A DNA stretch of 64,000 bases, from assembly GCA_015277795.1 (NCBI GenBank), contig CP063848.1, positions 3,472,001-3,536,000 on the forward strand, read 5' to 3'. The translations under genes were made by a program, and so were the position numbers. Of the stretch, positions 6,608-29,765 are shown piece by piece (position 1 is the stretch's first letter; every line of letters starts with the position of its first letter). Source of the stretch: Massilia sp. UMI-21. GTDB lineage: Bacteria; Pseudomonadota; Gammaproteobacteria; Burkholderiales; Burkholderiaceae_D. The notes beneath the pieces were generated by a model. That model had not been told where the DNA came from. It saw only the letters and a list, made by a program, of their open reading frames with translations, and made no database searches.

Positions 6608-6942
6608 GCCCAAACTTATCTATAATAATTACGAAATTTTGTCATCAGGTGCTCGTTCGAGTCACTTGCTTGGAGAGATTGTTTTCTCCGGTCAACGACG
6701 TTCTACCCTACAATAAACGTAACATTAACAATTCTTCACGCGGCTGTTTGTCCGTGTTGACTAGTAGCGCCCACTGCCGTCTACAACCTGTGACCTCGTA
6801 CCCTCAATGAAAAGCTAACAAAGGCGCTGAACCGCGCTAGCCCCGTATTTCTTACCACGTGCAAAGTAGTACACAGCCGCCTTAGCAAAGGATCACCGGC
6901 AAGGTTTTGTGTTAAAAATATTAACCGCAACAGGAGGTCGAA
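6608..6942. other. AT-rich left end of the island, no gene seen
   Basis: This 335-bp stretch lies between the HD-gene fragment and the first recombinase gene. It is much more AT-rich than the host DNA and contains runs such as TATAATAATTACGAAATTTTG. It probably holds the recombinase arm-binding sites and the promoter of the recombination operon. TGTTATAGG at 6600-6608 resembles TGTTATGGG at 63454-63462 near the other end. No convincing coding frame was found. Confidence 0.5.
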
Positions 6943-8472: not shown

Positions 8473-8473
8473 G

Positions 8474-9910
8474 TTGACTGAACAACGCAGCGAATCCACG
8501 TCCCTTTCCGAGCATACTCATCCTGATGTGGTATTCGAAGGCTTAATTAAAAAAATCAAGAATAATAATAACCGATCCAGTCAATATGCTGTTCGCGCCA
8601 TCGAATGGCTCGAGATCCTAAATTCCGTGTGTCGCGAACTGTTTGAAGCTGGGTCTAAAGATTTTTCAAAAAGAAACGTCTCTCATCACTGCGCCCCATG
8701 TGGCGGCCCGATCCTCACAGATCAATCGATATATAAGCCGCGCCATCGCGAACTTATAAAGGCATGGGCCAAATATGCCGGTGGGACGACACGGGATGAG
8801 AAAACATCTGTAAAAAAAGTCAGCGTGACAGAAACGTCCCTGGAAAATGACAGACGTGCGATTTTCGCGCATCCGGACGAAACGCACGCGGATCTGTTGA
8901 GTAAGATGTTAGCTAACCCAAATTCGAAAGAACCAGTAATCGTAAAGGCTATCCTGCGTCTCAATATCCTGCATGACGTCTGTAAAAAACAATATGCAAT
9001 GGGTAGCAGAGATTTTTCGATGCGCAGCCTTGGTGCTATTTCGGCTCCCTTAGGGGGACCGACTTTTCAGGATAAGTCAATCTACCGGCCGACAAGTCGT
9101 ACTTTAATTGAATCGTGGGCTCAGTTCGCTAATGGGTACACGCGAACGCCGCCTCAACTGTTGAGAGAGCAGGATCGAAAAGAGACGGTTGACTATATCG
9201 AAAATTACTTTCAACGTACCGATCGGTTGCCAAGTTATGAAATGATCAAGAAGGAAGGGATGAAAAAATTTCTTGGCCCTGGAAAATCTCAGAGTGCACA
9301 GACAAACCGCATCATTAGCTCGATGGAACTATGGCGCCAAAGTTGGACAAAGAATGTATCGCCGGAGGTGAGCGCTGTATGTGATCAGCTTTTCGTACGA
9401 CTAGAAAAGATTCCAACCGTTCAGGAAGTTCAAGGGATTCTTGACGTCACTCATCCAAAAGAAGACAGCGCGCTCTTTACAGAAGTCGACTGTTGGCGGA
9501 GGTACCGTTTCGCTATGGACATGTGGATTTTCGCGCCAACCACTGACGAGACGTGTTTTTTATGGCTGGTACTTCACCCGGAACTGGGGCAGTGGCGTGA
9601 ACTCGTGGTCGCCTACCTAAACTCGCGACCAACACACCGAAAAAATTTGAACTTGGCCTTACACGCTTTTTTTTCAAAATATCTGCTAGACGGTAATTTA
9701 AAGCTCACGCCGAAGTCTTTCCTGGCTGAAGATTATCTGCCTCCCGATTTTTCTGACTATTCCACAAAAGAGCCTGGAACTGTAGGCAGAAAACACGAAC
9801 GCGCCGCGATTAATGCTTTCATTGATTACGTACTTGACCGAGGAAGCGATTTCATCGATATTGATGCTCACGGCCACCGAGTACGCAAAGCACAGTACAG
9901 GAACAATTGA
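8474..9910 (+). pseudogene. gmtZ: Large recombinase GmtZ-like, 5' part (cut by IS3-family element)
   Basis: The frame starts at a TTG at 8474, one base after the stop of the previous gene, and encodes 478 residues before reading into the IS3-family element, whose first bases supply the stop TGA. Joining base 9908 to 12386, with one CAATT target copy removed, continues in frame into the ORF at 12451, giving an ancestral protein of 1376 residues. Residues about 45-104 and 160-226 are two copies of one domain, with motifs GSKDFS / GSRDFS, a CGGP or LGGP turn and a RELIKAWAKYA / RTLIESWAQFA helix. The same domain forms the N-terminal half of the GmtX-like protein at 15071. This fragment lacks the catalytic domain. 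Confidence 0.8.
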
Positions 9911-9977
9911 GATAGCCCCCTGATTCACCAGACACGGTCGGTGCGGTATCCTTACGGATAGGAATACGACTGTGAAT

Positions 9978-10367
9978 ATGACTAGGAACAACCAAACCAT
10001 CGAAGTAGTGACAGTGTCCGAGGAGCGGCGCCGTCGCTGGTCAGTGCAGGAGAAAGCTGCACTGGTCAAGGAAACGTACGAGCTGGGGATGAGCGTATCG
10101 CTGGTCGCTCGCAAGCACGGCATCAGTGCCAGCCAGCTGTTCAATTGGCGCAAGCTGGAACGCGCGGGCGCCCTGGTGGCCGTCCAGTCAGGCGAGTCGG
10201 TGGTGCCGGCAAGCGAACTGGCTGCCGCGCGCGCCCAGATCGCACAACTGCAGCGCATGCTCGGCAAGAAGACGATGGAGGCGGAAATCCTGCGCGAAGC
10301 GGTCGAGGTAGCGCGCGAAAAAAAGTGGATTGCGCGCTCACCCTTATTGGACAAGGACGGCCAGTGA
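9978..10367 (+). CDS. IS3-family transposase OrfA
   Basis: A 129-residue helix-turn-helix protein (start at the ATG at 9978; a GTG at 9972 is an alternative). It has the HTH_8/HTH_21-like motif [19 protein letters not shown] followed by a leucine-zipper-like helix ([26 protein letters not shown]), typical of OrfA proteins that bind the IS ends. Its 3' end overlaps orfB in the -1 frame. Confidence 0.9.
10319..10325 (+). promoter_or_regulatory. Slippery heptamer for programmed -1 frameshift, OrfA to OrfAB
   Basis: A_AAA_AAG lies in phase with orfA (GAA AAA AAG) inside a run of seven A. A -1 shift here joins OrfA to the frame of orfB, as is established for IS3-family elements, giving the fused OrfAB transposase. 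Confidence 0.85.
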
Positions 10368-11266
10368 AGCCGGTCTGCGCTGTCCTTGGTGTAGCGCGCT
10401 CGAACGTGATTGATCGCCTTGCGCGTCCTGCGGACTGGATCGACGGTCGCACCTTGATCAGGCTTAACCCGGTTGCTGACGCGATGATTGCGGACGCCGT
10501 ACGTGCCGAGATCACGGCATTGCCGACTTACGGCTATCGCCGCGCCGGCGCCCTGGTGAACCGCACGCGCAGCCTGATGGGCCTGCGGCCCGTCAATCAC
10601 AAGCGCATGTACCGTGTGATGAAAGCAGAGGGTTTGCTGCTGCCAAAGTCGCCCAAGCGCCGGGACAGCGGCCGCGCTCATGATGGCAAGGTAGCCGTCG
10701 AGGAATCGAACCAGCGCTGGTGTTCGGACGGCTTCGAGATCGCCTGCGACAACGGCGATGTCGTGACGGGCGTATTCATGAAGGATTGCTGTGACCGCGA
10801 GATCATCGCCTGGCGTGCCTGGATTGGCCGCGGCCTGCCAGGAGAACCGGTGCGCGACATGATGATCGAGGCGGTAGAGGCACGCTTCGGAAGCACAAAC
10901 GAGCGGGCGATTACGCTTGAATTCTTGAGCGACAACGGCGGCGCTTTCCGGGCAATTGAAACGCACGCCTTGGCACATGAACTGGGCATCAAGCCGGTGC
11001 ACACGCCTGTCAACAGCCCGCAATCGAACGGCATGGCCGAGAGCTTCGTGAACACGTTTAAACGCGATTACGTCGGCGACATGGACCGGCGTGACGGCGC
11101 CGTCGTGCTGGCCCAGCTGCCCGACGCCTTCAGGCATTTCAACGAGGTGCATCCTCACTCGGCGCTGCGCTATAAATCGCCGCGCATGTTTAGAAAAGAG
11201 CGACCGCGTCAGGCTCTGGAAACTGACGCTAACTGTCGAGTCCCGTTTGATCATAAACGCGTTTAA
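10364..11266 (+). CDS. IS3-family transposase OrfB (catalytic DDE), C-terminus extended by IS481 insertion
   Basis: It starts at a GTG at 10364 or is made as an OrfAB fusion. It is an rve integrase-core protein with the HTH_21 segment [15 protein letters not shown] and DDE motifs around [23 protein letters not shown] and [19 protein letters not shown]. The native end can be reconstructed: bases 11228-11233 (GCTAAC, a copy of the IS481 target duplication) followed by TAAG at 12341 give ...ETDAN-stop. The IS481 insertion removed this stop, so the present frame runs ten residues into the IS481 end ([10 protein letters not shown]). All catalytic motifs remain, so the protein may still work. Confidence 0.88.
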
Positions 11267-12206
11267 CGAATAACTCCGGCCGCTTTTGTTGCCATTCCTT
11301 GAGAGCGAGGATGGGGGTTTTACTGCCGATGGCGCGTTGTGGAATGTGGTGGTTGTACAGCTTCAGATAGTTCAGCAAAGTGGCCTGCAGATCGGCCCGG
11401 CTATCGAAACGGGTCTGCTGCAGCAATTCGTTGATGCGCCCGTTGAAGCGCTCGACCATGCCATTGGTTTGCGGATGGCGTGGCGGCGCCAGGCGATGTT
11501 CTGCAGGCAGGGCTGCGCAGGCGACGTCGAATGCGTGTTTGCCGCTGGGCTTCTTGTCCTTGGTGGTGAAACGGTCGGTGAATTGCGAGCCGTTGTCGGT
11601 CAGGATTTTGCTGATCTTGATCGGCGAAGCCAACTTCAAACGGCGCAGAAAATCGACGCTACTTTTCTCCGTCATGTCGCTGTAGATGTGCATGAAGACC
11701 CAGCGCGTGGCGCGATCGATAGCGACGAACAGATAGCGGCGTGAGGTCTCGTCCGGCATCTGCGGCAGGTACTTGATATCGATGTGGATGAAGCCGGGTT
11801 CGTAGTCCTTGAAGGTCTTCTTCGGCGTGATCTTCTCTCCCTCTGCCGTCGCAATCAAGTCCGTCAGGCGCGACATGCCTTCACGCTTTAGCAGGCGCGC
11901 AATGCCCGCGCGCGAGACGGCCGGATTGATGTACTGCTTGGTAATGAACAGAAGATCGTCGAGCGGCAGGTAGAGTGACTGGCGCAGAGACAGAACAATG
12001 GCTTCCTGGGCCTGGCTCAAGGTTGTATGCAGTGTGTGAGCGCGGTGCGAGCGATCGTGTACGTCATCGCGTCCAAGCCACTTCTGTGCAGTGGCTCGCG
12101 TGATGTTGAAAACCTTGGCAGCTTCTCTGGAAGACAGGCCCGAATCCTTGATCTCCTGGCGGATCTTCGGTGTGGTACGGGCCTGTGGATGAATGCGTGA
12201 ACTCAT
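11229..12206 (-). CDS. IS481-family transposase
   Basis: A 325-residue DDE transposase with an N-terminal helix-turn-helix (SSREAAKVFNITRATAQKWL) and an rve core with FIHIDIKYLPQMPD (first Asp), ILTDNGSQF (second Asp) and HRLAPPRHPQTNGMVERFNG (Glu). Its stop codon reaches a few bases beyond the IS end into the flanking target copy. It appears intact. Confidence 0.93.
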   Translation of the reverse strand: MSSRIHPQARTTPKIRQEIKDSGLSSREAAKVFNITRATAQKWLGRDDVHDRSHRAHTLHTTLSQAQEAIVLSLRQSLYLPLDDLLFITKQYINPAVSRAGIARLLKREGMSRLTDLIATAEGEKITPKKTFKDYEPGFIHIDIKYLPQMPDETSRRYLFVAIDRATRWVFMHIYSDMTEKSSVDFLRRLKLASPIKISKILTDNGSQFTDRFTTKDKKPSGKHAFDVACAALPAEHRLAPPRHPQTNGMVERFNGRINELLQQTRFDSRADLQATLLNYLKLYNHHIPQRAIGSKTPILALKEWQQKRPELFVKRVYDQTGLDS

Positions 12207-12334
12207 GCTGCCAACTGCTCCTGGTGCGATTGAATGCCGGGACTGCTGAACCCAGCAATCAAGTCGCCCAGCATAGCTTTTGCACGAAACAAAGGCCAGC
12301 TACGGCGAGGAATATGATCGCACGATACTGAACA
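11234..12334 (-). mobile_element. IS481-family insertion sequence, complete, nested in the IS3 element
   Basis: The ends are TGTCGAGTCCCGTTTGATCA on the left and TGTTCAGTATCGTGCGATCA on the right (reverse complement), an imperfect inverted repeat of about 25 bp sharing TGT, AGT, CG and GATCATA. A 6-bp direct repeat GCTAAC flanks the element (11228-11233 and 12335-12340). It is 1101 bp with one transposase gene. Because it lies inside another IS, it is the younger insertion. Confidence 0.88.
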
Positions 12335-12387
12335 GCTAACTAAGCATCAGGCTGTGTCCGGGAATAGCGGGGCAAGATCACAATTTC

Positions 12388-15081
12388 TCTAACACAAATT
12401 CCACGACTCCTATTAAGCGCTCTAACAATACCGTCAACCGCAGGGTTGCCGTGGGCGCACTTCAGGATCTCCAGCTATCTTATCTTACGCAGCTAAATCC
12501 GAATTTTGAGCAATGGCGGGTGTATGCGGTCGGCTGGCTGGCGTCTACAAAAGTAAATTTAGGCGCCGCCAAAAGCGCAATCAGGGAAATCTTTGTTGAC
12601 TACATTGCGGCTGAGCGTCTTCCTTCTGACCCATCAACATTACTTTCTTCTGAATGGCAGCGCGAAAATCCCATTCCGTCCTATCGCGAAACGGCGCTTA
12701 AAACAATAGGAAGCAGACACGCGCGCGCGCACTTCGTTAAAGCTAATGAGTTTATCGATTATGTGCTGGAAAATTATTATTCTGCTGAAGACGACTACGG
12801 GCGACGAATTGTATCTGGGGACTTCCGAAACTTCCTTATCGAACAAAGCGCCGACATCCCGTCTGGGAAAGGCCAGGGTGCACACTCGAATAAAGAAGTC
12901 CTTCCCAGCCGATACATTAGATACATCCGTGACCTCATATGCCCAACTGAAGCGAAGAACTTTAGCGATTTGCTCTGGGCACAAGATGCAGTTTCGAATG
13001 GTGACTGGTTTCAAGTTACGTCCGAAAAAATCGACAAGGATGACCCAGATTGCGTATGGCGGATTCGGACTATCTTCGCCAAAGGAGCGCGCAAGCAACT
13101 GACAAAGTCTAAACGAGTTTACGAAATTTGGTATCCCGGGCGTACGATTGCCATGCTACTTAAACTGGAACTCCCACTCCGCACTTATCAGGTGAGGATG
13201 CTGGATAGTGGTGAGGCCGACACTTGGTGGTTTGAGGGAAGTACATGCGCCAGGAACGCGAGAGATGAACCGGTTTATTGTGCTGGACAGTTCCGAAAAA
13301 ATGATTCTGATATGGCCTCCCATGTCGGTAATATGGAAAGACACGCAGGCGTATTTCGTCGCATGCCCGACAGCATTTCCGGAAAGGTTTTCGCGGGGTT
13401 ATTTATAAACACGAACAAGACTCAAGATAGGGGCCAGGAACAGTGGGATCGTGGCTACGTAGTACCTTGGCAACACGGAAAAGTTCTGTATTGGTGCGAG
13501 CGTTTGCGAGATTGGCAAAGAAAATATAATCCAATTAGCGAACCGGTTCATTGCTCAGTCTTGCCAGACAAGGTACTTGGACCGAAAACTGAGTTGCAAA
13601 AACAACAGATGGGAAGCATGTGTTTTCTCTTCCGGGATCCTTGTGCTGCCCAGGCTAAGCGGGGATGGCCAATTGCGAATGGGAAGTTAGTGGTCTTGTG
13701 GACCAAGATTCTAGAAGAACTCGAAGATATTTGCGCAAAGAACGGGCATTCCGCTGTCGATGGTTCGCGGCTACGTTTTATACACAAGGACGATGCAGAG
13801 CGGAACTGTGGCTTATATTCTTTGCATTCACTTCGCGTTTCGCTGATTACACATCTTGCGACCGAGGGCGGTGTTGAGATGCAGATTTTGTCCGAATGTA
13901 TTGCCGGACATGCGCGTATTCTAATGACTCTTTATTACAAAAAATCTGGTATTGCGTATGTTAGCGACGTTATGGAAAGTGCGTCAGAGCGAATTAGGGA
14001 TGAAACGACAGAACAGAGAAATTGGATTCGCTGGGTAAAAGATGCAAGTCTCAGACAACTTGAAGTGAACTCTGCAGTCGTAGATGTGTCAGTAACGCAA
14101 GCTATAAAGGAAGCTTTCAACCAAGGAGGCTCGTCGTTAATCAGGACGAATCTTGGATTATGTGCAAAAGGTGGAATGGGATGCAGTAACGGAGGGAAAG
14201 TCATTGATGAGGATACAGGGGCCGTCACCTATGGCCCCACTCCTGGCTATCCTCAACAGAAAAATTGTGTAAGGTGCAGGTGGTTTATGACAGGCCCCGC
14301 TTTCCTTCAAGCTCTCGTTCACCATTGGAATCTTCTTCACTTCAATCTAGGGGACTCAGGCCGTCGTTATTTAGAGATGTCCTCTGAAATCACGTCGCTT
14401 GAGGCGGCGATGCTTGAATGCCAAAAATTGAATATGACGTTTGAGCATCATGCAAGATTGGAACAGCTTCGGCACTCATTAAGTGCCATTTATGACGGGA
14501 ACGAGAAGATCGCTGAAGACTCTTTGGCCACGATGAAGCTAATTGTACGATGCAAACACATCATCGATGCGGCAGCTGATCCTGATAGCGATGTGGTCCT
14601 TCTCGCAGTGGGAGGTATGGATGAGGTTAAAATTAATGTTAGCGAATGCTCTGAATTAGAGCAGATTTTGACAGTGGCTGTTGGCTCAACCGTCTATGTC
14701 GATGAGGATGCTCAAAAAGCTGTGCTCAAAGCCGGCAACGCCTTTGATCGGATGTTAATGATGAACGGCAAGGAACCTGTTTTTTTCAAGCTGAGTGAAA
14801 AAGAATTACCATCAGTCGTTCTACACATGACAAGTCTGCTCCAGGCATATACAGGCAGCACTGGAGGAGCTGTACCTTTTATTGAAGGCATAGAACGACT
14901 TTCTGCCCTCGGCTTGAACGGAGAAAGCAACGAAATCGTCAAGCTCGCAGCTGCAGGAAAATCGTTCAACTTGAACTCTATCAAGCCGAGTAAGGTAATA
15001 TCTATCACTTTCGGGGATAGTGCGCCCCTGCCCCGGCCATTACGGACTGCAGTAATGCGAGGAAAAAACAATGGGAAATGA
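12388..15081 (+). pseudogene. gmtZ: Large recombinase GmtZ-like, 3' part with tyrosine recombinase domain
   Basis: This is the continuation of the frame that starts at 8474; in its present form it could start only at a GTG such as 12451 (876 residues). It contains the catalytic signature: His459-x-x-Arg462 in YSLHSLRVS, His487 in IAGHAR and a Tyr495/Tyr496 pair in LMTLYYKK. An earlier Arg in PLRTYQVRMLDSGEADTW is a candidate first arginine. A Cys cluster (GLCAKGGMGC ... NCVRCRWFMTGP, around 14158-14295) suggests a zinc site. The overall layout resembles GmtZ-type large integrases. The 3' end overlaps the next gene by 11 bp. Whether the GTG-started product is made or works is unknown. Confidence 0.8.
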
Positions 15082-15745
15082 TGTTACTCTCAATCCGGAA
15101 GAGGTGTTGCAACAGTTGAAAGCGGGGGCGAAGTCAAAGCGCACAATAGACTCATTGGAAATCATCCATCTGGTCTGCAAAGAACAGTTCAACCGCAAAA
15201 GTTACAACTATAGCTACAGTATGATTGGTACATTGTCGGGGGAGCGCGGCGGGCCTACGGCCCAACCCATCCGTAATGCTACTGGCGCGGCTTATCGCAC
15301 ACTTATCGATACCTGGGCGCGGTTTTCAGATTCGGGAGCGCGCACCATGCCCCCGCAGCGGCCTTCTAATCTGCAAAATGATGTACTCTCGTTGATAAAT
15401 GATTCAGTGGCACGGATTCTGGTACAAAAATATATTTCAGAAAACACCAAGCTTCGGAACGAGAATCAGTTGCTGAAAGTCGCTGCCAAGGACAGAGTTG
15501 TAATCGATCTTTCTGGAACCCAAGGTGGATGTAGCTGTACATTCGATGCGTTCGCCTCAAAGAATCTTCTTTTAGAACAGGAAATTTTCGCATTGAAGAG
15601 TGCAATCAGTGCAGAAACGATGCAAAGGAACGGTTGGGCGGGCGATGCAAACAGTGGGGCCGTGAAAAAAGGTCCGCTAACCATATTTAGTCCTGGCTTC
15701 ATAACCGGCATCGCCAAAATTCTGAATGAATTTTGTGAAAATTGA
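15071..15745 (+). CDS. gmtX: Small helical protein of the recombinase trio, GmtX/GinD-like
   Basis: A 224-residue protein whose ATG lies 11 bp inside the end of the upstream recombinase gene, behind GAGGA. Residues about 24-92 form the domain HLVCKEQF...YSYSMIGTLS...GGPTAQPIRNATGAAYRTLIDTWARF, typical of GmtX of gamma-mobile-trio islands. The same domain occurs twice at the start of the gene at 8474. Residues about 115-145 look like a short coiled coil (ENTKLRNENQLLKVA). In GInt islands a small helical protein in this position is needed for integration and excision. Its biochemical role is not known from the sequence. Confidence 0.78.
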   Translation: MGNDVTLNPEEVLQQLKAGAKSKRTIDSLEIIHLVCKEQFNRKSYNYSYSMIGTLSGERGGPTAQPIRNATGAAYRTLIDTWARFSDSGARTMPPQRPSNLQNDVLSLINDSVARILVQKYISENTKLRNENQLLKVAAKDRVVIDLSGTQGGCSCTFDAFASKNLLLEQEIFALKSAISAETMQRNGWAGDANSGAVKKGPLTIFSPGFITGIAKILNEFCEN

Positions 15746-15898
15746 ACAAACCACTCTGCAGTCAGCTTCTGCGCGATGGCTGCCTAATAAGTGTCGACCG
15801 TCGTTGGAAAGTTGCGCAGAGTTCCAACTTGCGAATGCGCAAAACCGGCCGCCGCGCCCGGAATGGATGGTTTTGTGCAGCTGACTGATTGTTTTGAC

Positions 15899-16459
15899 TT
15901 AAACAACTTGTGCGAGATGCTTTAACTCATCAAATCGCCTGAGAAATAAACTGTAGGCACGATCCGGACCGACTGGAACAATCTTGACCGCATGGGCTTC
16001 CGGAAGATGGCCCCACTCAACCCACGCTGGCGGAAGCAAGTCTCGCAGCTCAGTGGCCATGCTTATGAGATCAGCGTGTTTTACTGCAGGATGTTCATCG
16101 TTGAATCCGAATCGGCGGCGTAGTGCATCTTTCACGGGCTTAAGGTGTGATTTGACGTAGTCACGACCTAACATTACCTTTACAGGCGATGGCCAGTCCC
16201 CGAGAAACTCTTCGCAGTCGTGCATCAGCGCAGCATATGCCAGAGGCTCTGGTACGAGATGGGATACCATAACTGAATGTTCGGCGACTGAATACCATGG
16301 TCTTGCAGCCCCCCCCCACCGGGGTTGCGATGCAAGACATAAGGCGATGTCAGTAATCGGTAAACCAGTTGCGTCTGGAGCGAGCAAGTCAAGGACATAG
16401 CCTGATGGTAGCAAAATAGATGTGCGTCCATCTGGTTTATCTAAGAGTTCAAGTTGCAT
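15899..16459 (-). CDS. HD-domain phosphohydrolase, island-borne relative of the disrupted host gene
   Basis: A 186-residue complete HD protein. Likely metal ligands are His61 (SVAEHS), His80-Asp81 (LMHDCEE) and Asp130 (VKHADLIS). HD proteins of this kind hydrolyse nucleotides or other phosphate esters in the cytosol. It aligns across its length with the host gene split by the island: LPSGYVLDLLAP against MPSGKRLDLLNP, RWGGAARPWYSVAEHS against RWGGHSAWPLSVAQHS, and LMHDCEEFLG against LLHDAEEGLLG. Codon use is AT-richer than in the host gene, and the att core CCGCTGT is absent at the corresponding codons. It follows the recombinase module tail to tail, which suggests a replacement for the lost host function. 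A run of nine G lies in codons 48-51. Confidence 0.88.
   Translation of the reverse strand: MQLELLDKPDGRTSILLPSGYVLDLLAPDATGLPITDIALCLASQPRWGGAARPWYSVAEHSVMVSHLVPEPLAYAALMHDCEEFLGDWPSPVKVMLGRDYVKSHLKPVKDALRRRFGFNDEHPAVKHADLISMATELRDLLPPAWVEWGHLPEAHAVKIVPVGPDRAYSLFLRRFDELKHLAQVV
16309..16317 (-). repeat. G9 homopolymer inside the island HD gene
   Basis: Nine consecutive C on the plus strand (G on the coding strand) fall in the conserved Trp-Gly-Gly-Ala region. One-base slippage would frameshift the protein before all its metal ligands. Confidence 0.75.
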
Positions 16460-16618
16460 AATTCAACGTTTCGGTGTGACGATCACGATGCCATTGCTAG
16501 GATCCTGTAGAGAAATTATGCTCGATGGTTCCGCTGCCCTGGTTCTGCTGTCATCCTACATCGTCCTGGTATGGTCGAACTAAAAAGTTTCGTGTAAGGC
16601 GATAGGGACAGTGTGGTC

Positions 16619-16638
16619 ACCCTTCTGTATAGAAGGGT
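16619..16638. terminator. Perfect hairpin downstream of czcA
   Basis: ACCCTTCT-GTAT-AGAAGGGT is a perfect 8-bp stem with a 4-base loop, about 20 bp past the czcA stop codon. No T-run follows on the minus strand, so it is not a textbook intrinsic terminator. It may block 3' exonucleases or act as an operator. Confidence 0.45.
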
Positions 16639-16656
16639 TGAGACGACGGTTAATCG

Positions 16657-19600
16657 CTAAGCCATCTTGTTCTTCTCCGCCTTACAGTGCATTGTGTAGT
16701 ACATCAACGGCAGCAACAACAGGGTAAGCGCGGTCGACGACAGGACGCCGCCGATGACCACGGTTGCCAACGGCCGCTGGACTTCGGCACCGGTCCCGGT
16801 CGCGATTGCCATCGGCACGAACCCAAGCGATGCAACAAGCGCCGTCATCAGGACCGGACGCAGCCTCGTCACTGCTCCTTCATTCACAGCGTCGATCAGC
16901 GGCCGTCCTTCATCCCGCAGGTTGCGGATAAAGGAGATCATCACCAGGCCGTTCAGCACCGCCACACCCGAAAGCGCGATGAAACCCACGGCGGCGGAGA
17001 TCGACATCGGAATGTCACGCAGCCAGAGCGCGAAAATGCCGCCGGTAAGTGCGAACGGTATGCCTGTAAAGACGAGCAGGCCATCCTTCACGGTGTTGAA
17101 CATGACAAACAGCAAGGCAAAGACCAGCATGAGCGACGCGGGTATGACGACCTGAAGCCGCTTGGCTGCCGCCTGCAGGTTTTCGAACTGTCCGCCCCAC
17201 GTCGTCCAGTAACCGGTCGGCACTTTCACGTCTGCCTGGATGCGCTGCTGCGCGTCTGCGACGAACGAACCGATATCACGGCCACGCACATTCGCCGTGA
17301 CAACAACGCGACGCTTGCCCTGCTCCCGGCTCATCTGGTTGGGGCCGGGCGCCATCTCGAACGACGCGATCTCCCCGAGCGTGATGAAGTGCTGCGCACC
17401 TTCGGCAGTTCCCGCCGGCAGTGGAACCGGAAGCCGCTTCAAGGCGTCGATATCGCTACGCACCGCCTCGGGCAGTCGCACCACGATGTCGAAGCGCCGA
17501 TCCCCCTCGAACAGCGTGCCTGCTTCACGACCGGCGGTTGCCGTCGCAATCATGTCCTGCACGTCGGCAATGTTCAGGCCCATCCTCGCGGCCCGCTCCC
17601 GGTCGACCCGGATCTGGAGCATCGGCAGGCCGGTGGTCTGCTCGACCGCAACTTCGCTGGCACCCGGAACTTTCTCAAGAACTTCGCCGATACGGGCAGC
17701 CGTCGTGTTGAGGGTATCGAGGTCGTCGCCGAACACCTTTACCGCGACGTCACTGCGCACTCCTGAAATGAGCTCGTTGACCCTGAGCTGGATCGGCTGG
17801 CTGAACTCGTAACTATTGCCCGGCAGGGTTTCGACCGTTTCCTGGATGGCTGCGAGGAGCTCGTCGCGCGTCTTCTTCGGCCTGGGCCACTCGCTCTCAG
17901 GTTTGAGCATGATGTAGCCGTCTGCGACGCTTGGCGGCATCGGGTCGGAGGCAACCTCCGCGGTGCCGATGCGGGCAAATACGCGCGCAATTTCCGGAAA
18001 CTTCTTCATCAAGGTGGTTTCGATCTGCTGCTGCATCTTGACCGACTGCGTCAGGCTCGTCCCCGGCACCCGCACGGTCAGCACGGCGAGATCGCCCTCG
18101 TTCATAGTGGGTACGAACTCCGTTCCGAGCCTGGTCGCCAGCAGTGCCGAGAGGGCGAGCACGATGCCGGCGAAGGCCAGGGCAACCGGCCTGTTCGCCA
18201 TCACATACCGCAGGGCCGGCTCGTAATAGCGCCGCGCTGCGTGCATCAGGCGGCTTTCCTTTTCCTCGATATGCTTGTTCATGAACAGGGCAACGGCTGC
18301 AGGAACGAAGGTAACCGAGAGGATCATCGCGCCCAACAGGGCGACCACCACCGTGAACGCCATCGGATGGAACATTTTCCCTTCGATGCCCGTGAGCACG
18401 AAGATCGGGAGATAGACAATCATGATGATCAACTGGCCAAACAGCAGCGGACGCCTGGCTTCCTGCGCAGCCAGGAATACCTCATCGAACCGCTCCTGCA
18501 TGGTCAGGGTGCGGCCGTGACGCGCCTGCGCGTGGGCGAGGCGCCGGACGCAGTTCTCGACGATGACGACCGCGCCGTCGACGATGATGCCGAAGTCGAG
18601 TGCACCCAGGCTGAGCAGGTTCGCGCTGATGTTGTTGCCCACCATGCCGGAGAAGGTGAACAGCATCGAGAGCGGAATGACCATCGCGGTCAGGAGCGCC
18701 GCTCGCATATTCCCAAGGAACAGGAAGAGCACTGCGATCACCAGCACGGCCCCTTCGAGCAGATTGTTCTTGACCGTATTGATTGCTTTCTCGACCAGGA
18801 CAGTGCGGTCGTACACCGTGACGGCCCTGACCCCGGGCGGCAGGGTGCGATTGATCTCGGCCATCTTCTTGTCGACCGCGGTCGATACCGCCCGGCTGTT
18901 CTCGCCGATCAGCATGAACACGGTCCCCAGCACGACCTCCTGTCCGTTCTCGGTGGCGGCACCGGTGCGCAGCTCGCGGCCGATCGACACCTCGGCCACG
19001 TCGCGCACCCGCACCGGCGTGCCGTGGCTGCTCGACACGACGACGCTTCCGAGATCGGCGATCGATTCGACCTGGCCTGGCGCGCGGATCAGGTATTGCT
19101 CCCCTGCCCGTTCGATGTATCCGGCGCCGACGTTGCTGTTGTTGCGTTCCAGCGCAGTGACGACGTCCGCAAGGCTCAAGCCGTACGACGACAGGAGGTT
19201 GGGGTTGGGCGCGACCAGGAACTCCTTGTTGAAGCCGCCGATGGAATTGATCTCGGTGACGCCCGGCACGTTGCGCAGCTGTGGTTTGATGATCCAGTCC
19301 TGCACTTCGCGCAGGTCCGTTGGCGTATAGGGCGAGCCATCCGCCTTCTTCGCTCCTGGAACGGTCTCGACAGTCCAGAGGTAGATTTCACTCAGTCCCG
19401 TGGCGATCGGCCCCATCTCGGGGGTGACGCCGGCTGGCAGTTCCTCGCGTGCGTCCTGCAGCCGCTGGCTGACCAGCTGGCGGGCGAAGTGGATGTCGGT
19501 GCCGTCCTTGAAGACGACGGTCACTTGCGACAGGCCGTAGCGCGACAGTGAGCGGAACGACTCGAGTTGCGGCAATCCCGACATCAGGGACTCGATTGGG

Positions 19601-19800
19601 AACGTGATGCGCTGCTCCGTCTCGAGCGGCGAAAAGCCCGGAGCGGCCGTATTGATCTGCACCTGCACGTTGGTCACGTCCGGTACGGCATCGATGGGGA
19701 GTCGCTGGTAGTTGTAGACACCGGCCACCGCCATGACCAGGACGAGGAACATGACGATCCAGCGGTGCTCGATGGAAGCACGAATAATTCGATTAAACAT
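16657..19800 (-). CDS. czcA: Heavy-metal RND efflux pump, inner-membrane subunit (Zn/Cd/Co type)
   Basis: A 1047-residue RND protein with 12 membrane segments and two large periplasmic loops. It drives proton-coupled export of divalent cations through CzcB and CzcC. The TM4 proton-relay motif DFGIIVDGAVVIVEN is the HME1 signature of Zn/Cd/Co pumps and differs from the [13 protein letters not shown] of the Cu pump at 52213. N-terminal RASIEHRWIVMFLVL is the first membrane helix. It is the last gene of the cadA-czcICBA operon, 15 bp after czcB. Length is normal. Confidence 0.95.
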   Translation of the reverse strand: MFNRIIRASIEHRWIVMFLVLVMAVAGVYNYQRLPIDAVPDVTNVQVQINTAAPGFSPLETEQRITFPIESLMSGLPQLESFRSLSRYGLSQVTVVFKDGTDIHFARQLVSQRLQDAREELPAGVTPEMGPIATGLSEIYLWTVETVPGAKKADGSPYTPTDLREVQDWIIKPQLRNVPGVTEINSIGGFNKEFLVAPNPNLLSSYGLSLADVVTALERNNSNVGAGYIERAGEQYLIRAPGQVESIADLGSVVVSSSHGTPVRVRDVAEVSIGRELRTGAATENGQEVVLGTVFMLIGENSRAVSTAVDKKMAEINRTLPPGVRAVTVYDRTVLVEKAINTVKNNLLEGAVLVIAVLFLFLGNMRAALLTAMVIPLSMLFTFSGMVGNNISANLLSLGALDFGIIVDGAVVIVENCVRRLAHAQARHGRTLTMQERFDEVFLAAQEARRPLLFGQLIIMIVYLPIFVLTGIEGKMFHPMAFTVVVALLGAMILSVTFVPAAVALFMNKHIEEKESRLMHAARRYYEPALRYVMANRPVALAFAGIVLALSALLATRLGTEFVPTMNEGDLAVLTVRVPGTSLTQSVKMQQQIETTLMKKFPEIARVFARIGTAEVASDPMPPSVADGYIMLKPESEWPRPKKTRDELLAAIQETVETLPGNSYEFSQPIQLRVNELISGVRSDVAVKVFGDDLDTLNTTAARIGEVLEKVPGASEVAVEQTTGLPMLQIRVDRERAARMGLNIADVQDMIATATAGREAGTLFEGDRRFDIVVRLPEAVRSDIDALKRLPVPLPAGTAEGAQHFITLGEIASFEMAPGPNQMSREQGKRRVVVTANVRGRDIGSFVADAQQRIQADVKVPTGYWTTWGGQFENLQAAAKRLQVVIPASLMLVFALLFVMFNTVKDGLLVFTGIPFALTGGIFALWLRDIPMSISAAVGFIALSGVAVLNGLVMISFIRNLRDEGRPLIDAVNEGAVTRLRPVLMTALVASLGFVPMAIATGTGAEVQRPLATVVIGGVLSSTALTLLLLPLMYYTMHCKAEKNKMA

Positions 19801-19815
19801 GGTCGTGGTCCCCGT

Positions 19816-21084
19816 TCAATGCTCGTGCTCGGCGTCGCCCTTGGCTTGCTCGGCCTTGATGGCGAAGCTGCCAGCGCCGGCGTACTGCTCACCCGCCTTC
19901 ATGCCTTTGATAATCTCGACCAGGCGCCCGTCCGAGCGGCCAACCGACACGGGCTGGGCCATGAAGCCCTCGCCCACGCGCTTGAACACGACCTGGCGTC
20001 CCTCGACCGTCTGGAGCGCCTCCTTGGCGACAGCCACAGGCACCTCCGCCGAGCCGGTGACGATGTCCACATTGACAAAGAGTCCCGGCCGCCACGCGGT
20101 CTTTGGATTGTCCAGGACGACCCGGGCCTTGGCCGAGCGCGACTCTTCGCCAATCAGGCTGCTGACGAAACTGACCTTGCCTGGCGCCGTCGTGCTTGAC
20201 GCGACCGAGCGGATGACCGCTTCGGTACCGACGCGAACGATTTCCAGGTCCTTGGCCGGCACGACGACGTCAGCCCACACGGTCGACAGGTCCGACACGG
20301 TGAAGATGCGCGTGTCAGCGCCGACGACTTCGCCCTGGGCCACATGCTTTTCCACGATCGTCCCGCCAAACGGTGCACGCACCTGCAGGCGGTTGCTTGC
20401 CCAGGAAACGCCACCTGCGCTGCCGCCCTGACCGCCGAGTGCCGCCAGTTTCTGCCGTGCGCCCTGCAGGGCGATTTCAGCTTCTCTCAGATCGCTTTCC
20501 GCCTTGAGATAGTCCTGGCGGGCGGAGATCTTCTCCTCCCAAAGCGTCTTTTCCGATGCGTACACGCTGCGCGCGTAGGTGACGCGTTTCTCGGCCGCAG
20601 CCAGATCCGCACGCTGACCGGCGATATCGGCACTGGCGATGAGGACGAGGACATCGCCTTTTCTGACGTTCTGGCCCAGCGTTGCGGCAACCCGCTCCAC
20701 CGCACCAGGCGCACGTGCAGTGACGTGGGCGGTGCGATCCTCGTTGAGGGCGATCTGGCCAGGCATCCGGATGAAAGTGTCGAGATGCGCCGCGGCCGCG
20801 GTCTGCATCGTGATGCCGGCGAGCTTGATCTGGTCGTCCGTGAAACGGATCGCGCCTTCGCCTTCCTGCTGCTCACTGTGCTTTTCGCCGGCATGTTCGT
20901 CGCCCTTACCCGCGTCTCCTTCCCCTTTTGCCTCCTTGTGTTCGTCTTTTTCGCCGTGCTCGGCGACCTCGCTGTGTTCAGCCTCTTGTGCGCCGCCATT
21001 GCGGCCCTTGAATACGACGAACCCGCCAAACGCGATGGCCAGGGCCACCATGATCGCGATGACCTGCAACTGATTCTTGTTCAT
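19816..21084 (-). CDS. czcB: RND efflux periplasmic adaptor (membrane fusion protein)
   Basis: A 422-residue periplasmic adaptor anchored by an N-terminal membrane helix (LQVIAIMVALAIAFGGFVVF). A linker very rich in His, Glu and Lys (about 32-75, e.g. EHGEKDEHKEAKGEGD) probably binds or buffers metal. It is followed by the barrel-sandwich, alpha-hairpin and beta-barrel domains, with RAPFGGTIVEKHVAQGEVV as the lipoyl-like half. It bridges CzcA and CzcC. The start at 21084 has AGGAGC upstream and overlaps the end of czcC by 4 bp. Confidence 0.94.
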   Translation of the reverse strand: MNKNQLQVIAIMVALAIAFGGFVVFKGRNGGAQEAEHSEVAEHGEKDEHKEAKGEGDAGKGDEHAGEKHSEQQEGEGAIRFTDDQIKLAGITMQTAAAAHLDTFIRMPGQIALNEDRTAHVTARAPGAVERVAATLGQNVRKGDVLVLIASADIAGQRADLAAAEKRVTYARSVYASEKTLWEEKISARQDYLKAESDLREAEIALQGARQKLAALGGQGGSAGGVSWASNRLQVRAPFGGTIVEKHVAQGEVVGADTRIFTVSDLSTVWADVVVPAKDLEIVRVGTEAVIRSVASSTTAPGKVSFVSSLIGEESRSAKARVVLDNPKTAWRPGLFVNVDIVTGSAEVPVAVAKEALQTVEGRQVVFKRVGEGFMAQPVSVGRSDGRLVEIIKGMKAGEQYAGAGSFAIKAEQAKGDAEHEH

Positions 21085-22367
21085 TGTTGCTCCTGTGCCT
21101 GGGTGGTGCCGCTGAGCGGGCCTGTCGCGCCGACGAGTCGATCGATCTCGGCCGATGCCCGGTAGCTCTCCGCCACCGCCAGCAGATATTGGTTTTTCGA
21201 TTGGAACAGGGTGCGCTGCGCGTCGAGCACTTCCAGGAAGCTGAATTTGCCAAGCTCGAACCCGCGGCTGGCGGCCTGGTAGGTACTCTCGGCTCCGGGA
21301 AGCATGTCCGTCGAGATCAAGGCCGCTTCCTCGAGGGCCACAGCCATGCGCGCATGGGCGTCGTACAGCTCGGCGCGCAGGCGCAGTGATTCGGCCGCCA
21401 GCTCGTCGCGCGCCTTGTCGGTGCGGCGCAAGGATTCAAGCAGGCTGCCCTGGTTACGGTTGAACAATGGCAGCGGGACCGACAATCCCACCACGGTCTG
21501 CCTGTGGCCATCCTCACGCTTGGTGCCTACCGCGACCGTTACATCCGGCATGCGTCTTGTACGCTCGACGTCGACCACGGCCTGGCGGTGCTCGATAAGT
21601 GCGCGTGCACGCTCTACGCCAGGCGCACGCTCTAGCTGCGCGAGCAGCGCCGGCAACGCTGCAAGGCGCGGCAGCTCGATCGCATCCGGGCGCGCAACTT
21701 CGATGTTGTGCGGGTCTTCGCCTACCATTGCCGCCAGCTTGCCCTTGGCGCGCGCAAGCTCGCGCCTGGCCTGCACCGCGTCGATGCGCACGCTTGCCTG
21801 TGCGACCCTGGCCCGGGTCTCCTCGACCGGCGACACCTTCCCCGCGAGAACCCGTTTGCCGGCCACGTCGGTCGCCTTCGCGGCGATCGACGCAATCTCG
21901 TCGGCCAGGCGGCTGCGCTCCATTGCTGCGACCACTTCGTAAAAGGCCGCGATGGTCTCGCCGCGCACGCGCGCGCGAACAGCGCCGGCATCCAGGGAGG
22001 CAACATGCTGCTCGCGCTCGGCCGCACGAATGCGTGACGAACGTTTGCCGCCAAGTTCGAGTGGAATATTCACCTGGACCGTCGAAGTACGGTTCGGCTC
22101 GTCGGAACCTTCACGCAACAGTTCAAGTTCTGGATTGGGAATGATCCCTGCCTGCTTCACTGCACCTGCCTGTGCAGCCACTTCGTTGAGTGCGGCGCGG
22201 ATCTCCGGATGCACCCGCATCGCTCGCTCCACGGCCGCGTCAACCGTCAGCGGGATTGTCGCGATTTGCCTCGATTCAGTTGGAGCGGCAGCTCCCGGCT
22301 GGGCTTGCGCAAGGAACGGCACACAGCCCATCCCCGCTATCGCAAGCGATAGAATTGCTTTCTTCAT
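21081..22367 (-). CDS. czcC: RND efflux outer-membrane factor (TolC family)
   Basis: A 428-residue outer-membrane channel protein. The signal peptide MKKAILSLAIAGMGCVPFLAQA supports the ATG at 22367, which has GGAG upstream; an in-frame ATG at 22391 is less likely. It shows the repeated long-helix pattern of TolC-family OEP domains. It completes the Czc tripartite pump, carrying metal from the periplasm across the outer membrane. Confidence 0.92.
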   Translation of the reverse strand: MKKAILSLAIAGMGCVPFLAQAQPGAAAPTESRQIATIPLTVDAAVERAMRVHPEIRAALNEVAAQAGAVKQAGIIPNPELELLREGSDEPNRTSTVQVNIPLELGGKRSSRIRAAEREQHVASLDAGAVRARVRGETIAAFYEVVAAMERSRLADEIASIAAKATDVAGKRVLAGKVSPVEETRARVAQASVRIDAVQARRELARAKGKLAAMVGEDPHNIEVARPDAIELPRLAALPALLAQLERAPGVERARALIEHRQAVVDVERTRRMPDVTVAVGTKREDGHRQTVVGLSVPLPLFNRNQGSLLESLRRTDKARDELAAESLRLRAELYDAHARMAVALEEAALISTDMLPGAESTYQAASRGFELGKFSFLEVLDAQRTLFQSKNQYLLAVAESYRASAEIDRLVGATGPLSGTTQAQEQQ

Positions 22368-22456
22368 TTTTTCTCCGAACAAGGTTTCCATTCGGCGTCG
22401 ACGTATCCGTACCGCCCGTTAGGTCGAGCGTTCCGGATTCGAGCGAATCCGCAGTG

Positions 22457-22816
22457 TCAAGCGCGGAATGACCAGTCGGGCCGGGGAATCAAGTCGGGGA
22501 TGTGCGAAGAATAGCGGGAAGATTCAGTCCGGATGTGAGTGCTCAGGCCTGGCTGCGCCAACGCGGGGGCGGCGGGCGCAATCGCATTCGATGGGACGTG
22601 ATGGCAATACTCGCAGTCGGTATCAGCCTGGACCTTCTTTGTCTCGTGCTTGCCGTCGTCCGTGGTTTCGTCGTCCCTGGTTTCGTCGTGCTTGTGTACG
22701 TGGTGACCGAAGTGGGGAGCGGCCGCTTCCTCGTGCGCGCAATACGTACCTGCAATCGCCCAGGAGAACTGGAGCGGCAGGAGCACGAGCAGGAAAATCA
22801 GGAAGTAGCGTTTCAT
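22457..22816 (-). CDS. czcI: CzcI-like small exported protein
   Basis: A 119-residue protein with a signal peptide (MKRYFLIFLLVLLPLQFSWA) and a His/Asp-rich middle (HFGHHVHKHDETRDDE) with Cys-x-x-Cys-His-His. These are the features of CzcI, a small periplasmic protein at the head of czcCBA operons thought to influence regulation or metal sensing. Its ATG at 22816 overlaps the stop of the upstream ATPase gene, so it is translated from the same operon. Confidence 0.82.
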   Translation of the reverse strand: MKRYFLIFLLVLLPLQFSWAIAGTYCAHEEAAAPHFGHHVHKHDETRDDETTDDGKHETKKVQADTDCEYCHHVPSNAIAPAAPALAQPGLSTHIRTESSRYSSHIPDLIPRPDWSFRA

Positions 22817-25239
22817 CAGGTTTTTGGGCGCAGCAAGCGCAGGCCATTGAAGACAACAAGCAAGCTCGCGCCCATGTCGGCGAACACAGCCATCCATAGT
22901 GTAGCCGAACCGGCAATGGCCAGCAGGAGAAACACGGCCTTGATCGCCAGCGCAGCAAAGATATTCTGCTTGAGGATCGAGCTCACCTGTTTGCTCAGGC
23001 GAATGAACTGAGGGATCTTGCGTAAATCGTCATCCATCAGTGCGACGTCGGCCGTCTCGATAGCGGTATCGGTACCGGCCGCGCCCATCGCGAAGCCGAT
23101 GTTTGCTTTGGCCAGCGCCGGGGCATCGTTGATCCCGTCACCGACCATGCCAACAACCCCGTGCCGCGCGATCTCTTCATCGACCGCCGCCAGCTTGTCC
23201 TCCGGCAGCAGGTTGCCTCGGGCATCATCGATGCCGACCTGGCGGGCGATGGCGGCCGCGGTGACTCTGTTGTCGCCTGTGAGCATGACGGTACGAACGC
23301 CTAGCTTGTGAAGCTGGACAATCGCTTCACGGCTGGTTTCACGAATGGTATCGGCCACACCAATGATCAAGAGCGGCGCCGCCTCGTCACATAACACCAC
23401 TGCGGTCTTGCCCTCGCCTTCGAGTTTCGCGAGCACCGCCTCGGTTGCGTCGTTGCAGATACCTAGCTCCTCCACCAGCCGGTGGTTGCCTAGGTAGTAC
23501 CACTTGCCGTCGATTTTGCCTTTCGTGCCACGGCCAGTCAGCGCTTCGAAGTCTGTTACGGTCGACACTGGGGCAGAACCTGCCTGATCCGACCAGTGGC
23601 GGCTCACCGCGGTCGACACCGGGTGGTCCGAGCGGTCGGCTAGCGATGCCGCCAGTTGCAGCGCGCTGCCCGCATCCCCCCGCAGCGCGGATACATCGGT
23701 CACGACTGGTTTGCCCTGCGTGATGGTGCCGGTCTTGTCCAGTGCCAGCGAACGCACTTTGCCGCCCTCTTCAAGATAGACGCCACCCTTGATCAGGATT
23801 CCCATTCTGGCTGCGGCGGCAAGGCCGCTCACGACCGTCACCGGGGTCGAAATCACGAGTGCGCAGGGACAGGCGATCACGAGCAGTACGAGCGCCTTGT
23901 AGATCCATGGCATCCACTCCGCCCCCAACACTAGCGGCGGGAAGATGGCGACCGCAAGTGCCAGCGCGAACACGATCGGCGTATAGACCTTGGAGAACTT
24001 GTCGACAAAGCGCTGGGTAGGTGCGCGGCTGCCCTGCGCCTCTTCGACTGCGCGGATGATGCGCGAGAGCGTCGAATTGCTGTGGGCAGCCGTGACACGG
24101 TATTCGAACGACCCGGTCTCGTTGACCGTGCCGGCGAACACCATGTCGCCCACTGATTTCGAAACCGGAATGCTTTCGCCCGTGATCGAGGCCTGGTTCA
24201 CCGCAGATTGACCGGTCGTCAGCGTACCATCCAGGGCAATCCTTTCTCCGGGCCCAACGCGCGCAGTGGTGCCAACCGTGACGCTTGCGGCTTCGCGTTC
24301 GGCCCAGGTACCGTCCTCCAGGCGCACGTGTGCGGTGTCCGGCGTCAGGGCAACCAGGCCCTGGATTGCGTTTCTTGCCCTGTCGAGCGAACGCGCCTCG
24401 ATCAATTCGGCAAGCGCAAACAGGACCATGACCATCGCCGCTTCCGGCCATTGGCCGATCAGTACCGCCCCGGTGACGGCAATCGACATCAAGGCGTTGA
24501 TGTTGAGGTTGCGGTTTTTGAGCGCTATCCAGCCCTTCTTGTAGACGCCTAGGCCGGAAGCGGCGATGGCGGCCACCGCCAGGAGAATGACCGGCACCGA
24601 ATTTTCCACGCCGGTGCTCCAGGCGACGAGCTCGGCGCCGATAGCCGCGGCCAGGCCGAGTAAAAGGCTTATGAACTGCTTTTTCTGGGTCGGCGGCGCC
24701 GTCGTCGCAGCACGCTCGCCCGTCGCATTTGCAACTGTCGTCGCCTGCATCCCGATCGACTCCAGGGCTTTTTCGATCTGGGAAACAGGGCCACTGTGCC
24801 AGACAGCCAGGCGTCGCTGTACCAGGTTGAACTCCAGCTTCTCGACTCGGGGTACGCCGGCGAGCTTGCTGCGAATGAGGGCTTCCTCGGTCGGGCAATC
24901 CATGTTCTCGATCCGGAACACGGTATGTGCGGCATTCACCCCGACGACGACGTCGCCCTCGACGACCGGCTCCATGCCAACGGACCGAATGGCGGCGATG
25001 ATGGGAGCCGGATCAGGCAGACTGTGCGAGACCCGCAGCTTCCGCTGAACGAGATTGAAGTCCAGCTGCCCGACGCCGGCCACCCGGCCCAGCGCCTGGC
25101 GCAGCAGCCCCTCTTCGGTTGGGCAGTCCATCTGCGCAATGCTCAGCTCGAGTGCGCTTGTGCCCATGGCCACACTCGCGGCGGCCGGACGCACCGCGCC
25201 CGACTTTGCGCAACAGGACTTGCTCTGGCATTCCGACAT
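22816..25239 (-). CDS. cadA: Zn/Cd/Pb-exporting P1B-type ATPase
   Basis: An 807-residue ATPase that pumps Zn, Cd or Pb ions out of the cytosol. It begins MSECQSKSCCAKSG (Cys-rich) at 25239 behind GGGGGAT. Two HMA-like domains each carry MDCPTEE, with CxxE rather than the usual CxxC. It has the CPCALVIS transport motif, the DKTGTIT phosphorylation site, [10 protein letters not shown], a Lys in TM7 (ALAIKAVFLLLA) and an Asp in TM8 (FADMGASLLVV). These last residues mark the Zn/Cd/Pb class (P1B-2). It is the first gene of an operon continuing into czcICBA, with a CadR-type operator upstream. Confidence 0.94.
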   Translation of the reverse strand: MSECQSKSCCAKSGAVRPAAASVAMGTSALELSIAQMDCPTEEGLLRQALGRVAGVGQLDFNLVQRKLRVSHSLPDPAPIIAAIRSVGMEPVVEGDVVVGVNAAHTVFRIENMDCPTEEALIRSKLAGVPRVEKLEFNLVQRRLAVWHSGPVSQIEKALESIGMQATTVANATGERAATTAPPTQKKQFISLLLGLAAAIGAELVAWSTGVENSVPVILLAVAAIAASGLGVYKKGWIALKNRNLNINALMSIAVTGAVLIGQWPEAAMVMVLFALAELIEARSLDRARNAIQGLVALTPDTAHVRLEDGTWAEREAASVTVGTTARVGPGERIALDGTLTTGQSAVNQASITGESIPVSKSVGDMVFAGTVNETGSFEYRVTAAHSNSTLSRIIRAVEEAQGSRAPTQRFVDKFSKVYTPIVFALALAVAIFPPLVLGAEWMPWIYKALVLLVIACPCALVISTPVTVVSGLAAAARMGILIKGGVYLEEGGKVRSLALDKTGTITQGKPVVTDVSALRGDAGSALQLAASLADRSDHPVSTAVSRHWSDQAGSAPVSTVTDFEALTGRGTKGKIDGKWYYLGNHRLVEELGICNDATEAVLAKLEGEGKTAVVLCDEAAPLLIIGVADTIRETSREAIVQLHKLGVRTVMLTGDNRVTAAAIARQVGIDDARGNLLPEDKLAAVDEEIARHGVVGMVGDGINDAPALAKANIGFAMGAAGTDTAIETADVALMDDDLRKIPQFIRLSKQVSSILKQNIFAALAIKAVFLLLAIAGSATLWMAVFADMGASLLVVFNGLRLLRPKT

Positions 25240-25271
25240 GTCGATCCCCCTGCAAACTGTGTATAGTTCGC

Positions 25272-25302
25272 ATTTAAAACCCTGTAGCTGGTGCAGGGTC
25301 AA
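25272..25302 (-). promoter_or_regulatory. CadR/MerR-type operator-promoter of cadA-czcICBA
   Basis: The dyad ACCCTG-N9-CAGGGT (25279-25299) lies between a -35 TTGACC (25302-25297, minus strand) and a -10 TTAAAT (25277-25272) separated by 19 bp. The over-long spacer with a centred dyad is the hallmark of promoters activated by MerR-family metal sensors. The divergent cadR gene starts about 30 bp away. Confidence 0.85.
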
Positions 25303-25332
25303 GCGTTTAGCGACCGAAACAGGACAATCTCG

Positions 25333-25761
25333 ATGAAAATTGGTGAACTCGCGGAGCGATCCGGCTGCCTGGTGGAGACCATCCGCTATTACGAGCGAGT
25401 CGGTCTGCTTATGCCGCCTGAGCGCGCATCGAATAATTACCGGACCTATAACGAACGGCACAGCGAGCGTCTGCTGTTCATACGTCATTGCCGGGCGCTG
25501 GACATGACTTTGGATGAAATCCGGACCTTGCTCGACTTTCGGGACGACCCGGAAGTCGAGTGTGTCGGGGTGAACGACCTCCTTGACAAGCACATCGGTC
25601 ACGTCGTCGAGCGGATCCAGGCGCTGACGGCCCTGGAAGCGCAGTTGCGCGAGCTGAGGGGCCGCTGTGTAGTCGCTGATACGACGAGCTCATGCGCAAT
25701 CTTGCGTGCGCTCGGCACCGAGAGCAGCTGTGAAGTCTCGGCGCACCGGATTCATGGTTAG
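25333..25761 (+). CDS. cadR: Cd/Pb-responsive MerR-family regulator
   Basis: A 142-residue MerR-type activator starting at MKIGELAERSGCLVETIRYYE, the classic N-terminal winged helix-turn-helix. A dimerisation helix and a C-terminal Cys-containing metal-binding loop follow, with CVG near residue 77 and later Cys in RGRCVVADTTSSC. CadR/PbrR proteins bind Cd, Pb or Zn and untwist a 19-bp-spaced promoter. The operator for the divergent ATPase-czc operon lies immediately upstream. It is the only dedicated metal sensor gene recognised in the island. Confidence 0.9.
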   Translation: MKIGELAERSGCLVETIRYYERVGLLMPPERASNNYRTYNERHSERLLFIRHCRALDMTLDEIRTLLDFRDDPEVECVGVNDLLDKHIGHVVERIQALTALEAQLRELRGRCVVADTTSSCAILRALGTESSCEVSAHRIHG

Positions 25762-25855
25762 ACATGCCGGCATGTTCTACTGACCATGGATGAATCCTCA
25801 AGCATATGTGGTCGACAGTTGAGTTTCGCCCCTGGGTCAGGTATAGTCCCGCCGT

Positions 25856-25963: not shown

Positions 25964-26021
25964 GCGCGCCACGTCGGGCCGCGCAGCTATGCCTTTGCGT
26001 TAGCCCGACCTGAAAGTACTC

Positions 26022-29655: not shown

Positions 29656-29765
29656 GCGTGCAAACGCGTCATCCGGCCGTCCCGGGACCATGCATGGCCG
29701 GCCGCCGAGACCTGACACCGAACAGGCTGGAAGGCTTGCCCTAACCGTTCCAGCCCGCATGGACC

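Follow-up and report, generated by a model that had tools for sequence, protein, structure and literature searches.

A 56.9-kb Gamma-Mobile-Trio (GMT) island in the genome of Massilia sp. UMI-21 cuts a host HD-domain gene (H1) in two and carries an intact, diverged homologue (H2), which we read as a replacement gene for H1 and as part of a recurrent strategy that opens core protein-coding genes to GMT islands as landing sites (probability just under 0.8). In common descriptions, integrating islands spare their hosts by landing in tRNA genes or at the ends of genes. Bringing along a spare of the broken gene looks like a recurrent habit of GMT islands; if so, core protein-coding genes would become usable as landing sites, one could guess where an island lands from what it carries, and part of the horizontal transfer of core genes would be a by-product of the islands' mobility. 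We lean slightly towards a broader view of how GMT islands evolve as a class, in which each lineage couples the specificity of its recombinase to a foreign replacement gene that lacks the att sequence, the carried core gene predicting the landing site and diverged core genes (greB, gdh, srkA and others) spreading between species as the cost of landing safely.

A comparable strategy has been published for the recA mobile element (RME), an island inside recA that carries an intact recA in Vibrio cholerae S24 (PMC4405046) and also in V. parahaemolyticus 090-96 (PMC4334540). Its recA copy is 23-24% divergent and is found at the opposite end from the integrase (PMC4405046, PMC4334540); the copy was shown to be functional, and the authors' rationale is that it spares the host (PMC4405046). 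Like the island studied here, RME lands in a core gene and carries an intact diverged copy of it, but its target is recA rather than H1, and in the V. parahaemolyticus element the genes tabulated beside the cut recA are laid out differently (PMC4334540). In Clostridium difficile, an insert that breaks thymidylate synthase likewise brings its own version of that gene, reported to be more active (Knetsch 2011, cited in PMC4405046); this insert measures 4.2 kb. GInts (PMC5385486) and strand-biased circularizing elements (PMC10214605) resemble GMT islands in having several tyrosine recombinases and in integrating inside protein-coding genes or at their ends. For GInts, the authors proposed that the target is spared by 3' end replacement and an outward promoter (PMC5385486); both kinds of element differ in that the accounts consulted do not mention a replacement copy (PMC5385486, PMC10214605).

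GMT islands (Mahata et al. 2024) have been presented as armouries of T6SS toxins and antiphage systems (PMC12039261, PMC12715929). The literature searched, which stops short of the main GMT description (Mahata et al. 2024), yielded no replacement copy in such an island. The original prediction knew of no description of the pairing of an island with a copy of its target for GMT or GInt islands. As a strategy it is already in print for the Vibrio recA island, with the same rationale (PMC4405046); its recurrence among GMT islands was not found in print. What we describe is a variant of a known strategy (RME) on a known kind of element (GMT).

A GMT island within a host HD-domain gene

The window, the whole 64,000-bp stretch that was analysed, comprises positions 3472001-3536000 of G000:C1 (G000 being the Massilia sp. 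UMI-21 genome), and the island lies between the two parts of H1 (Table 1). H1 breaks off after ...TGGCCGCTG at 6601 and picks up with CCGCTGTCG at 63484; joining the flanks by script gave a single open frame of 211 codons, or 213 codons if the tandem CCGCTG of the orthologues is retained. With both H1 parts located, the insertion falls inside the coding region of a core gene, as in target-replacing islands of the RME type. Many H1 orthologues have CCGCTGCCGCTGTC at the junction place (17 sites printed, with some base variation), so the 7-bp CCGCTGT repeat need not be a target duplication, and we rejected it as proof of one. We also rejected an apparently broken H1 in the genome G062, where the neighbouring G3PDH and UvrD genes are frame-shifted as well and a sequence error is therefore likelier.

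Table 1. Features of the window (positions counted from its first nucleotide)
Feature	Position	Strand	Basis
H1 N-terminal part, interrupted host HD gene	6440..6601	+	sequence and joined frame
Left-junction CCGCTGT	6596..6602	.	sequence read
GMT island, 56,882 bp, between both H1 parts	6602..63483	.	junctions read
gmtY, recombinase	6943..8472	+	NCBIfam NF040693, 415 bits, cut-off 340
GmtX-like fragment, joined to GmtZ in one 1400-aa ORF in G020	8474..9910	+	
Insertion sequences: IS3-like ORF pair (ORF reading) and IS481-family transposase (11229-12206, -)	9972..12206	.	
gmtZ, integrase	12451..15081	+	NCBIfam NF047926, 765 bits, cut-off 600
gmtX	15071..15745	+	NCBIfam NF040692, 178 bits, cut-off 40
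H2, intact island HD gene, 186 aa, proposed H1 replacement	15899..16459	-	ORF, homology, selection, tree
Upstream region of H2, about 150 bp, alike in the three islands	16460..16615	-	alignment; limit judged by eye
Right-junction CCGCTGT; probably second of two native CCGCTG units, not a duplication	63484..63490	.	
H1 C-terminal part, up to stop codon	63484..63963	+	86-90% identical orthologues in relatives

GmtY, GmtZ and GmtX all exceed their NCBIfam cut-offs, as in GMT islands. The module is interrupted in the window, where insertion sequences lie between 8474-9910 and 12451-15081, two stretches that together correspond to the single 1400-aa ORF of the related island in G020. With its module split by insertion sequences, the window island may not move by itself and may be an immobile copy, even though its GmtZ covers the model in full. 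Beyond the module, the ORFs at 16657-31761 and 32735-59695 read as two RND efflux systems, P-type ATPases, multicopper oxidases and outer-membrane factors; the cargo would, by this ORF reading, be metal resistance, unlike that of GMT armouries as described in the sources cited above.

The island HD gene and its counterparts

H2 and gmtX lie tail to tail, 153 bp apart. The intact HD protein had been predicted to be of the same family as the split host gene, and three comparisons agree on this: BLASTP (E=4e-5, 32% over 94 aa), profile-profile comparison (probability 97.4, E=1.5e-11, 33% identity over 175 columns) and a shared match to PHROG 318/8467 (deoxyribonucleoside 5'-monophosphatase; E=7e-42 and 1e-33 for H2, 2e-14 and 2e-8 for the H1 C-terminal part). 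The homology of H1 and H2 is beyond chance, and all the motifs predicted to be common to them (LPSG/MPSG, RWGG, S-V-A-E/Q-H-S, HD and AD) are present in both; the island carries an intact diverged homologue of its target, as target-replacing islands of the RME type do. Since H1 and H2 are only 33% identical, equal function is not certain. H2 also matches the solved protein 2gz4 (E=1.5e-9) and scores 16.0 bits against the YfbR-like 5'-deoxynucleotidase model (Pfam PF12917), below its gathering cut-off of 25.9.

At the junction, host H1 reads CCGCTGT and island H2 reads TGGTATT, bearing out the expectation that the island copy differs at the att site; the recombinase of the island should therefore not target H2. 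The further idea that the copy is a recoded host gene fails, for H2 is a homologue from another lineage that is different at the att core anyway. A prophage-type origin of H2 was considered and rejected: nine relatives at about 35-44% identity group apart from it, in a group with support of only 85/85 and long branches, one member of which lies in phage surroundings by ORF reading. A promoter and terminator scan around H2 matched no sigma-70-like promoter upstream of the gene and found no terminator.

A scan of the named genomes for H2 gave 28 loci. GMT islands account for two of these, L095 of Massilia arenae GEM5 (G020) and L096 of a Paucimonas MAG (G184), each with the H1 N-terminal part and G3PDH beyond gmtY and with H2 beyond gmtX. 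The left junction falls at the identical H1 nucleotide in all three islands (window, G020 and G184), and the right junction was observed in the window and G020. H2 adjoins gmtX in each of the three GMT islands found in H1, whereas the genes past it differ; upstream, the likeness of the three islands stops beyond about 150 bp, as read by eye from the alignment. The presence of the HD gene next to gmtX whenever the target is an HD gene (3/3 islands in the sample), and its absence where the target differs (H2 was not found in the sequence examined at the other 24 of 27 GMT-type loci), are both as anticipated. The sample holds no H1-targeted island without H2, and the 26 other H2 loci in the named genomes, five of which adjoin UvrD as H1 does, have no gmt gene in the flanks examined; neither of the two observations named as refuting the prediction turned up in this sample.

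Of the module proteins, H2 is conserved best, at 93.0% identity to the window in G020 and 86.9% in G184, compared with 71.5 and 55.9% for gmtX, 82.9 and 64.2% for gmtZ and 76.8 and 68.2% for gmtY. It is under purifying selection, with a dN/dS of about 0.05 (0.052, 0.054 and 0.107 for the three pairs), a ratio no lower than those of gmtZ (0.054) and gmtY (0.044) for the pair G000-G020. In the tree, the three island copies form one clade (100/98) inside the H2 genes (100/99), with weakly supported placement beside Oxalobacteraceae genes (81/53). Third-position G+C is 0.45-0.50 in the island copies and 0.46 in gmtZ, unlike the native H2 of Massilia sp. TS11 (0.81) and H1 (0.88). These sequence data suggest that H2 was captured once and has long resided in the island; the three HD islands are relatives and do not count as independent cases.

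Within the genus, an H2-type gene (>70% identity) was found in 3 of 62 genomes: the window genome, G020 and TS11 (G030). H1 is split in the first two and has no match in TS11, the sole genome without a match to the H1 C-terminal part among the 37 genus genomes searched. There, H2 (L071, 9367-9972) has G3PDH on one side and UvrD on the other and adjoins a response-regulator gene; in relatives, this is the H1 locus. TS11 has an island-type HD gene at the native H1 locus and may therefore lack the landing site of the island. H2 adjoins UvrD in four further Massilia species. Four genus genomes have gmtX over the cut-off: H2 is present in the two whose H1 holds an island, and in G017 and G065 H1 matches are present and H2 was not found. 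No second intact H1 or H2 was found in the window genome. H1 and H2 appear mutually exclusive in the genus, three cases in 62 genomes being a small number. Outside GMT islands, H2-like genes at 79-81% identity occur on Azospirillum replicons.

Target copies across 27 GMT-type loci

GmtY exceeded its cut-off in 14 of 392 genomes of the family and, among the matches listed at E<=1e-80, in 3/369 (class), 3/233 (another family), 1/2 and 5/399 (order). G000 or others recur among these counts, the net being 25 chromosomal loci and two plasmids. Omitted from the count were gmtY matches below the cut-off in G772, G344, G015, G217 and a second G431 piece, together with G065 (no gmtY found) and G017 and G015 (outside the copy test). 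The 27 loci divide into 10 with a copy of their own interrupted gene, 2 with a target and no copy, 2 with a copy outside a split gene and 13 with no target recognised.

The ten intact, diverged copies belong to six families, named by Pfam and NCBIfam. The HD family is the target in G000, G020 and G184. SrkA kinase is split at residue 227/228 in G419, whose 351-aa copy is 55% and 72% identical to the halves; in G262, an intact SrkA copy adjoins the C-terminal half on another contig. The PA0069 radical SAM gene is split near residue 108 in G408 and G441; each island has a 391-aa copy, whose identities to the halves are 47/53% and 38/57%, respectively. In G214, the halves of glutamate dehydrogenase are 66/65% identical to a 427-aa copy behind gmtX; in G431, a TMEM175 copy (69%) lies directly behind gmtX, the other end being off the contig; and in G567, a 159-aa GreB copy (51/53%) lies directly behind gmtX. 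Both target halves were located in 8/10 of these loci, and only one in G184 and G431 because of contig ends. The copy sits directly behind gmtX for HD, TMEM175, glutamate dehydrogenase and GreB, and just inside the far end for SrkA and PA0069. When translated, the six kinds of copy contained no internal stop.

As a control, ten target fragments were compared with the ORFs of 19 islands. Own pairs matched in 8/10, the misses being G262 (copy on another contig) and G452 (none), and pairs sharing a target matched in 5/6; pairs with different targets matched in 2/174, both involving the srkA copy in G267, indicating that target and copy are specifically paired in these sequences. A six-frame test (<=3.6 kb of flank) also gave matches within large families (efflux pumps, GGDEF domains, response regulators and FAD enzymes, by ORF reading), and two own pairs among these matches, one in G426 and a second own pair for G408, were not counted; it missed the HD pairs, in which the H1 N-terminal part is short.

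HD genes of the H2 kind do travel, with homologues in 192 phage records (all <60% identity) and matches in 136 plasmid records, and H2 could be cargo like any other, perhaps a defence enzyme that depletes nucleotides, whose family is that of the target by chance. We regard this as very improbable, as it would need the same coincidence in six families against a control in which mismatched pairs so rarely match, and, in the sequence examined at the GMT loci, H2 was found just in the three islands in H1. The arrangement is also found in islands splitting srkA, the PA0069 radical SAM gene, glutamate dehydrogenase, TMEM175 and greB, and we therefore favour a recurrent strategy of target replacement. 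The GMT recombinases would insert the island at one nucleotide inside H1 and so break it, while the island would bring the diverged homologue H2 with its own conserved upstream region, leaving the cell with an HD phosphohydrolase of the H1 kind. The copy would take over the lost function, making insertion cost little, and this would be the reason that it is kept; the altered att sequence would prevent self-integration. The evidence bearing on this takeover is indirect, namely the selection on H2 and its presence at the H1 locus of TS11.

Sequence does not tell apart a gain for the host and a gain for the island, and the copy might mainly serve the latter, either because an internal deletion would cost the host a needed function or as a guard against self-integration, with host rescue as a by-product. 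H2 does lack the target-site core, and the copies lie with the mobility functions, adjoining gmtX or just inside the far end. We nevertheless consider this unlikely as the main explanation, because any cargo without an att sequence would avoid self-integration, which gives no account of why a homologue of the target is carried in six families.

Unpaired targets and copies, and loci with no target recognised

That the element supplies a copy of the gene it targets proved to be a wider pattern than predicted, extending to ten islands and six families, but it is not universal: in G1146a, the two halves of a split sbp share a contig, and the stretch that separates them holds no copy. The G1146 loci L207-L209 represent this island splitting sbp without a copy. 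In G452, the island abuts the 3' end of tdk (thymidine kinase), whose domain is nearly complete, and a copy was not found in the sequence examined. The resulting 10/12 is not usable as a frequency, because targets were often recognised through the copy.

Two loci show the reverse. In G267 (L153; L228), a GMT island holds an srkA copy while native srkA is intact on another contig, and in G142 (L213), a GMT remnant, an extra sbp lies behind gmtX, next to an intact native sbp. Such copies, facing no split target, would suit the view that the copy is a relic or recombination by-product without a function in the life of the island. That view is hardly credible given that H2 is intact in three islands with a dN/dS of 0.05-0.11 and that all six kinds of copy are free of internal stops, and we retain the reading of the copy as a replacement gene.

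No interrupted gene was recognised in 13 of the 27 loci (G426, G443, G454, G821, three in G1048, G1053, G1219, G1157, G1146b and two plasmids), some of which are cut by contig ends. The left flanks of these loci were read as ORF lists, and a tRNA scan of 16 stretches gave one tRNA-Asn, near G1219. The two plasmid loci with a left flank gave no copy-test match at E<=1e-6 and were also screened with the known target genes; a third plasmid GMT record starts close to gmtY and was left out of the copy test. Alignment of gmtZ against viral contigs gave 42 stretches that fitted a pattern, none of which was confirmed. At L189, L190, L193, L196 and L198 (in G821, G1048 and G1053), gmtY-like genes lie beside genes that read as MobA-type relaxases, possibly another GMT subtype. 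At L040 (G017:C44), two tandem GmtZ-like genes, each over the GmtZ cut-off, are followed by a GmtX-like gene.
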